A stretch of DNA of 33,073 nucleotides. Origin: an archaeon GW2011_AR19 (GTDB lineage Archaea > Nanobdellota > Nanobdellia > Pacearchaeales > GW2011-AR1). The notes below the pieces were generated by a model. The model ran no database searches. It worked only from the letters and a program-made list of their open reading frames with translations, and had not been told where the DNA came from. The stretch spans positions 1 through 33,073 of the forward strand of contig JWKY01000006.1 of NCBI GenBank assembly GCA_000806015.1, in the 5' to 3' direction. Of this stretch, positions 1,226 through 20,103 are shown piece by piece. The first letter of the stretch is position 1. Each line of letters opens with the position of its first letter. The translations under genes were made by a program, and so were the position numbers.

Positions 1226-1522
1226 CTCTCTTGTCACGTAAAGCGTGAAGATATCAAGACTTTTGCTTCTAAAAAAAGAAAATCTGATTGGATATAACGT
1301 ATCAGGCTATGTTTGGAGTCTTGGATTTTACTAAATTTTGGGAATTTAAAAAAATTTAAAATACCTGCTCGTTTTTCTCGCAGAAATTAAGAAAATTACT
1401 CTCACGGCAAAGTTCAGAAAATTGAGTTAATCATTTAATTAAGCTGTCTGAGTAGAATTCTAAAAAGATTTTCAATAAAATAAATAGAATAGTTTTTTAT
1501 ATCATCAGATATTAATTTAATC

Positions 1523-17139: not shown

Positions 17140-17211
17140 CGAGCAATTACGAAAGGGACAAATTTTAATTTAAAAATAATTTATCAATAACAGCTTTCGT
17201 GATTGGGAGTA
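17140..17211 (+). repeat. Short repeat R2 copy A (72 bp)
   Basis: CGAGCAATTACGAAAG...CTTTCGTGATTGGGAGTA; 69/72 identical by eye to the reverse complement of 19937-20008. Confidence 0.85.
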
Positions 17212-17502
17212 GGAATTGTTTTGAAATTGGAGTTTTGATTTTTCTTGAACAACGAAATTGCTCGTTGCTTTGCCCGCAAAATTGCCCTTACTCGAGACCT
17301 CACTCGGACTTTTCAAATTTGACTTCGTGATGAAATCTCGTGAAATCTCTCGCCCCCAGCGCTTCTACTCCCCCCTTCCAGCCCAGCTTCGGGATAAAAG
17401 GAATTGTCGTCATAAAAACATTTTAAAAGTTAAGCTGAATTTAATATTCACAGATATTTGAATTTCCAAGATTTAGTAAAAACTCAAAACTCCGAACAGA
17501 GC
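17210..17502 (+). mobile_element. Degenerate MITE-like element, third copy of the GGCTCTG family
   Basis: GGAATTGTTTTGAAATTGGAGTTTTGATTTTTC near the left end; ATTTGAATTTCCAAGATTTAG...ACTCCGAACAGAGC at the right end. Confidence 0.6.
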
Positions 17503-17506
17503 ATAT

Positions 17507-18443: not shown

Positions 18444-18493
18444 GTGAGATATTATTAGATTAGAAATCTTGTTTTTAAAATGTTTGGATTATT

Positions 18494-18635
18494 GGCTCTG
18501 TCCGGAATTGTTTTCAAATTGGAGTTTTTGATTTTTCAAATTCCCACTCTACCTCGTCTTTCAGACGAGACCCGCCCTTAATTTTTATTTGAATTTCCAA
18601 AATTTAGTGAAAAATCTAAAACTCCGGACAGAGCC
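18494..18635 (+). mobile_element. MITE-like element M1 (142 bp), 13-bp perfect TIRs and 8-bp TSD
   Basis: GGCTCTGTCCGGA...TCCGGACAGAGCC flanked by GGATTATT at 18486-18493 and 18636-18643. Confidence 0.93.
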
Positions 18636-18710
18636 GGATTATTGGTTTTTTGAATTTAATAAATTTTCATCGCAAACTTTATTAATCTTTTAAAATTCAT
18701 TAAATATCAT

Positions 18711-18783
18711 GGGGCTGTAGTATAGCCTGGTAGTATTCCAGGTTTGGGACCTGGCGACCGCGGTTCAAATCCGCGCAGCCCCA
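18711..18783 (+). tRNA. tRNA-Pro (anticodon TGG)
   Basis: GGGGCTG...CAGCCCC acceptor stem; CCAGG-TTTGGGA-CCTGG anticodon arm; GCGGTTCAAATCCGC T arm; no CCA encoded. Confidence 0.95.
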
Positions 18784-18823
18784 TTGAAAATTTTTTTTAG
18801 ATTATTAAAGTTTAGGTTATCAA

Positions 18824-18971
18824 GGCTTTATCCGGAATTGTTTTGAAATTGATGTTTTGATTTTTTTCTAATTCCCACTCCAAGTTCGAGCTAAAGCTCG
18901 AAAACCCACCCCTAATTTTTATTTGAATTTCCCAAGAACATTACTAAAAAAATCAAACTCCAGACAAAGCC
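18824..18971 (+). mobile_element. MITE-like element M2 (148 bp) with 8-bp TSD
   Basis: GGCTTTATCCGGA...TCCAGACAAAGCC flanked by GTTATCAA at 18816-18823 and 18972-18979. Confidence 0.92.
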
Positions 18972-19076
18972 GTTATCAAAAGATTGTATTTTAATATTTT
19001 TAATTTAAATTCTGCCTTCAAGAAATTTTTCATCAAATATTTTCACAAATCAAAAAAGCCCGATGGCTTAATAAAA

Positions 19077-19810: not shown

Positions 19811-20103
19811 GGCTCTGTTGAAAATCTCTTTTTTACATTTCGTTTTGAATTCTAATCTACTCCCGACCTCGCTCGCGATTAATAAAAATAAAATAAGTTT
19901 GTCTTGCGAAGTCATTTGCCCCACCCACCAGCGCTTTACTCCCAATCACGAAAGCTGTTATTAATAAATTATTTTTAAATCAAAATTTGTCACTTTCGTA
20001 ATTGCTCGGCTCCCCCTTCCTCCACCCAGAATTACTCTCGTCATTCACTTTTATAATTAATTGCCAAAGAAAGTTACGAACTCAAAACTTTTTCAACAGA
20101 GTC
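19811..20103 (+). mobile_element. Larger TIR element of a related family (about 293 bp) containing an R2 insertion
   Basis: Left GGCTCTGTTGAAAA; right TTTTTCAACAGAGTC (near-perfect inverted repeat); no clean TSD. Confidence 0.65.
19937..20008 (-). repeat. Short repeat R2 copy B (72 bp, inverted relative to copy A)
   Basis: Reverse complement matches 17140-17211 at 69/72; interrupts a ccagcgctt|ctcggctccccc module. Confidence 0.85.

Follow-up and report, generated by a model that had tools for sequence, protein, structure and literature searches.

Two short elements, M1 and M2, bracket a tRNA-Pro gene in the stretch of nanoarchaeal (DPANN) DNA analysed here (33,073 nucleotides, hereafter the window). 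We conclude with good confidence that they are MITE-type elements moved in trans by IS5-family transposases, and that they carry an exchangeable foldback core inside their ends. In the mechanism we propose, IS5-family DDE transposases acting in trans on GGCTNTGT-type terminal repeats would move M1 and M2. An A-type enzyme (CCGGA ends) would generate 8-bp duplications, and its B-type relative (TTGAAAA ends) 9-bp ones. Inside the ends lies a foldback cassette with a variable hairpin, a conserved C-tract/G-tract motif and arms that are complementary to each other. The cassette is common to at least three kinds of end and recombines with them, and some copies additionally bear nested hairpin modules belonging to a separate repeat family. 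Table 1 lists the features of the window.

Table 1. M1, M2 and related features of the window, in order of position.
Feature	Position	Strand	Remark
Fragment equivalent to M1 positions 85-142, its 3′ part	1305..1359	-	
A-type element, degraded: left terminal repeat lost, extra modules present	about 17195..17504 (also given as 17212-17502)	+	absent in G001 and G002
M1 left target duplication GGATTATT	18486..18493	.	single copy at the empty site of congener G002
M1, A-type element, 142 bp	18494..18635	+	related copies genome-wide
M1 left terminal repeat GGCTCTGTCCGGA	18494..18506	+	matches G002 insertion-sequence ends
M1 conserved core (AAATTCCCACT - hairpin - ACCCGCCC - TTTGAATTTCC)	18538..18598	+	covariance models R1-R3
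M1 core hairpin CTCGTC-TTTCA-GACGAG	18553..18569	.	fold and covariation
M1 right terminal repeat (TCCGGACAGAGCC on +)	18623..18635	-	CCGGAGT/CCGGAAT asymmetry as in G002:C195
M1 right target duplication GGATTATT	18636..18643	.	
tRNA-Pro (TGG)	18710..18784	+	M1 ~67 bp upstream
M2 left target duplication GTTATCAA	18816..18823	.	
M2, A-type element, 148 bp	18824..18971	+	75% identity to M1
M2 conserved core	18869..18932	+	covariance-model matches
M2 core hairpin TTCGAGC-TAAA-GCTCGAA	18885..18902	.	letters unlike M1, pairing kept
M2 right target duplication GTTATCAA	18972..18979	.	
B-type element with GGCTCTGTTGAAAA ends, 293 bp, internal extra hairpin modules	19811..20103	+	

A first-pass annotation of this DNA had described M1 and M2 as MITE-like, non-autonomous elements with inverted-repeat ends and perfect 8-bp target duplications. 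Their coordinates, ends and duplications proved exact, and insertion by transposition is borne out by further copies, by an empty site in the congener G002 and by insertion sequences with the same ends in relatives. That annotation had also named two results that would speak against it, namely the lack of any other copy and element-free orthologous loci that still hold both 8-mers; neither was observed. It had missed that M1 and M2 are similar to each other over their full length. A 21-nt pattern of the 5′ end was matched twice, compared to 0.00 matches expected from 100 shuffles, and M1 folds with a z-score of −6.9 against dinucleotide shuffles. The features by which MITEs are recognised were all found: terminal inverted repeats, duplications of fixed length, an empty site (for M1), several copies per genome lacking a transposase gene, and full insertion sequences with the same ends. 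That the two elements flank tRNA-Pro is probably incidental.

The congeners G001 and G002 match the M1/tRNA-Pro locus at about 85% identity in the best stretches. At the M1 site G002 reads ...AAAATGTTTGTATTATT-ATTTATTG..., free of any element and with one copy of the target (GTATTATT), an empty site of the kind that the first-pass annotation had suggested looking for; this evidence concerns M1, since the downstream flank of the tRNA gene, on the M2 side, differs between species. G001 holds a 227-bp B-type element (G001:C14:2011-2237) 2 bp off the M1 site, with its own 9-bp duplication (GATTATTTG/GATTATTCG). Because two species have been hit independently, 2 bp apart and by different types of element, the data suggest that the site upstream of tRNA-Pro is an insertion hotspot. 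From the insertion site up to the tRNA gene, all three species share a conserved stretch that looks like the promoter region of this gene, which would place M1 just outside the presumed promoter.

M1 used as a query against its own assembly (G000; 678 kb in 20 contigs, about 75% complete) matched many related places. The end motif GGCTCTGTYSRRAA, allowing at most one mismatch, occurs 38 times genome-wide compared to 2 times for a reversed-pattern control. Two types of end are present in G000, A (GGCTCTGTCCGGA(A/G)T) and B (GGCTCTGTTGAAAA), and both M1 and M2 are of the A type. We compared the flanks of the copies, taking the outermost bases of the terminal repeats as the boundaries. The flanks of six A-type copies agree at 46 of 48 positions when 8 bp are taken, with no significant excess of matches at 7, 9 or 10 bp. 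For twelve B-type copies the agreement lies at 9 bp (76 of 108 positions, a value reached in none of 5,000 permutations), without any excess at 7 or 8 bp, although in several of the twelve no clear 9-bp duplication abuts the exact boundary. The length of the duplication thus goes with the type of end, as it should if the insertions are the work of two different transposases. The first-pass annotation had not noticed the window's third and fourth copies or the fragment. The third and fourth copies (17212-17502 and 19811-20103) are missing at the orthologous places in G002, and the latter has no clear target duplication.

Full insertion sequences with these ends were found in relatives, the genomes compared being draft MAGs. 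In G002 an A-type insertion sequence has the ends GGCTCTGTCCGGAGT / AGCTCTGTCCGGAAT around a 320-aa PF01609 transposase. There are two such full A-type sequences in this genome (G002:C195 and C114), and a scan of contigs with the A-type transposase matched these two loci only. Their transposases score 62.6-70.7 bits on PF01609 (cut-off 23), and their best NCBIfam model is NF033579 'IS5 family' at 94-114 bits (97.7 for the 320-aa protein), which is below the cut-off of 140. The sequence on G002:C195 has the same end asymmetry as M1, one end being CCGGAAT and the other CCGGAGT, and no clear target duplication was found around it. The B-type insertion sequence of G030 is about 880 bp long, with GGCTATGTTGAAAA ends and a perfect 9-bp duplication (GTTTGTAGG); the transposases of the B-type sequences in G030 and G073 reach 160.1 and 143.7 bits on NF033579 and so exceed its cut-off of 140. 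Core elements in G010 are flanked by a third type of end, C (GGCTTTGTAGAAAG), and by duplications such as CATTAAAAA and GGAGTTAGA. The C end is similar to those of an IS5-type insertion sequence found in G020 (GGCTTAGTAGAAAG). In G026, G029, G078 and G112 several ends lie near contig ends, as would be expected where an assembly is broken by insertion sequences present in many copies.

It is thus probable that IS5-family transposases drive the family, and helper insertion sequences like those of the relatives are likely to have moved M1 and M2. In the G000 assembly the searches turned up no PF01609, PF13737 or PF12762 protein and no intact transposase of the A or B type, which at 75% completeness is weak evidence of absence; the A-type helper is presumably missing from the assembly rather than extinct. 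At G000:C7:59007 a single B-type end is directly followed by what appears to be the decayed C-terminus of a B-type IS5 transposase (KTWWRIKIKAEIYGKAICHNLNL), with a weak E-value of 0.05 but in the expected place. We note that another single B-type end, at G000:C7:8115, is followed by a gene that by eye only resembles a Vsr endonuclease. In G001 a pair of ends 1 kb apart (C6:2311-3315) was considered as a candidate full insertion sequence and rejected, as it consists of a short element plus an unrelated membrane-protein gene.

The first-pass annotation had instead proposed an IS1595/ISXO2-like transposase, and the GGC start and the 8-bp duplications do fit IS1595. We consider this highly improbable: PF12762 was not found in G000, G001, G002 or G010, its sole match (in G026) is not bounded by these ends, and the transposases that these ends do enclose are PF01609/IS5 proteins. 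Further origins guessed from the ends were also set aside. For an IS903-like origin, PF13737 is absent from G000 and both congeners, and the examples in G024, G035 and G041 have different ends; IS6- and ISL3-like origins were dropped once PF01609 transposases with the right ends had been found. As a separate observation, the PF13737 (IS903-like) transposases of G041, G035 and G024 share a common right end resembling CATGCAACACAGC, and at least three PF13737 loci have a similar upstream sequence that resembles a divergent gene, so that this may be a two-gene insertion sequence.

Inside the terminal repeats, the interior of M1 and M2 is not derived from the A- or B-type insertion sequences. It holds a core with the layout [arm]-ATTCCCACT-hairpin-ACCCRCCC-about 10 nt-TTGAATTNCC-like motif-[arm]. 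Covariance models found this core in 7 of 116 relatives. When 211 genomes of the order were searched with a broader model, 15 had it, with 1-19 copies per genome; these belong to a single family and to 13 genera. No core element was found in G002, the carrier of the A-type insertion sequence. In a few elements with these ends the core is interrupted or not recognisable. Elements of all three end types (A, B and C) have the core, and so do copies without recognisable ends. Individual hairpin alleles cross between end types: CTCGTC/GACGAG occurs with A ends (M1) and B ends (C1:27629), and GCTTGCC/GGCAAGC likewise with A ends (G001:C5) and B ends, which indicates that ends and core recombine. Among the copies lacking recognisable terminal repeats are cores in G026 and G010 whose arms are strongly diverged, and one copy (G026:C4:6960) is flanked by direct repeats some 22 bp long.

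The family might be read as an ordinary MITE, with the core no more than ancestral filler that links two terminal repeats. Conserved non-coding interiors are common in MITEs, and most core copies in the own genome do carry terminal repeats. Filler, however, would be expected to diverge faster than the ends, whereas the same core is found with A, B and C ends and in end-less copies whose arms have diverged; we therefore regard this reading as rather unlikely. Having the same core behind different ends in most members is unusual for MITE-type parasites.

The pairing of the hairpin is maintained while its letters change. Among 40 distinct core sequences, in alignments fitted to the covariance model and thus favouring pairing, 97.4% of hairpin cells are paired. 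Two-sided changes are seen in 7 of 7 hairpin pairs and in 76 cells, compared to 21.4 in shuffles, and the signal is lost when the pairing is shifted by one column. The outer arms also co-vary, with a mean native duplex energy of −12.3 kcal/mol compared to −7.5 kcal/mol for swapped arms (0 of 20,000 permutations as low). Wobble combinations are nearly absent (2 G-T and 1 A-C among 270 cells), suggesting either that the pairing matters as DNA or that template switching rewrites the arms. Of 29 core sequences, 28 retain four C-tracts (G-tracts when the opposite strand is read), and from its sequence the G-rich strand could possibly form a quadruplex-duplex hybrid.

Strong hairpin covariation, conserved unpaired motifs and significant folds on both strands could also point to a structured RNA (a regulatory RNA, leader or terminator), with the covariation resulting from RNA folding. 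So few wobble pairs, 3 in 270 cells whichever strand is read, would be unusual for an RNA. Moreover, all 37 core copies examined are intergenic with respect to predicted genes, and their orientation relative to the neighbouring genes shows no clear strand bias (16 opposite to both, 10 the same as both, 7 between divergent and 3 between convergent genes). No gene family or function shared among the neighbours was found, and in an Rfam 15 search only the tRNA reached its gathering score, leaving the cores without a match. On these grounds a structured RNA appears improbable, and the narrower idea of a riboswitch-like cis-regulatory RNA was abandoned for want of a fixed orientation, a shared neighbour or an Rfam match.

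Arms and hairpin could also stay complementary without selection: in a near-palindrome, a template switch at replication would overwrite one arm with a copy of the other. The near-absence of wobble pairs is consistent with this. So is the comparison of an end-less copy with its orthologue (G000:C11:40595 and G001:C6:4922), in which paired positions differ in both arms. In the same pair, however, no difference is seen from AATTCCCACT through CACCC, against 84% identity over the whole locus, and template switching leaves unexplained why the unpaired ATTCCCACT and ACCCRCCC motifs are kept in 13 genera with different arms and ends. We thus hold it to be a doubtful account of the core, if one with some weight. 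In the reading that we prefer, the core would be a DNA-level structural cassette that is swapped between transposon ends and presumably has a function. It may be kept as a DNA hairpin or cruciform that is recognised by a protein or is useful for transposition. A more far-reaching proposal, which we put forward tentatively and would not favour as it stands, is that the core is a mobile cassette in its own right, a DNA hairpin flanked by conserved G-tract/C-tract motifs. It would be swapped among IS5-type ends, outlast them when they decay and be bound by a protein of the host or the transposon, and so form a new class of passenger, found in one DPANN family as searched.

Several elements, including those at 17212-17502 and 19811-20103, contain extra hairpin units of the form CTCCCGACCTCACTCGG...CCGTGAAGTCGCTCGCCC, which also occur outside elements. 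Matches to this module number 24 in G000, 9 in G001, 9 in G002 and 3 in G026, and none was found in G010. Since G002 has the modules but no core element, we take them to be a separate repeat family that has become nested in the elements.

DPANN genomes are small, and with A, B and C ends around one interior this family lends itself to testing how non-autonomous elements track diverging transposases. Target choice can be addressed from the insertions that two species carry in front of the same tRNA gene, 2 bp from each other, and the core allows one to ask why a foldback is retained whose changes are so strongly compensatory. Should it turn out to be functional, the core would be a structured passenger of a kind new to transposable elements.

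The family resembles prokaryotic MITEs (PMC10969869) in being short, non-coding and multi-copy, with terminal inverted repeats, target duplications and full insertion sequences in relatives; it differs in having a conserved, covarying foldback interior across different terminal repeats and duplication lengths. The archaeal MITEs named in the available portion of that review are from Sulfolobus, Halobacterium, Haloquadratum and Desulfurococcus, with no DPANN genus among them (PMC10969869), and our literature search found no MITE family from DPANN archaea. IS5-family insertion sequences (NF033579, PF01609) are the likely helpers, of about 0.9-1.0 kb with GGCTNTGT ends and DDE_Tnp_1 transposases of 268-332 aa, whereas M1 and M2 lack a transposase and their interior beyond the terminal repeat is not derived from the insertion sequence. 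The 8-bp and 9-bp duplications presumably correspond to the ISH1 and IS903 groups of the IS5 family. BOX elements and BIMEs are modular bacterial repeats built of hairpin modules; they are like the present family in being intergenic composites with hairpin modules in varying number, but the present family ends in terminal repeats of the DDE type and makes target duplications. REPs go together with REP-associated tyrosine transposases of the HUH type and are not known to make target duplications. Like REPs and REPINs (PMC3116915, PMC2817692), the cores are many-copy intergenic hairpins with a conserved tag, but here they are found with DDE-type ends and target duplications.
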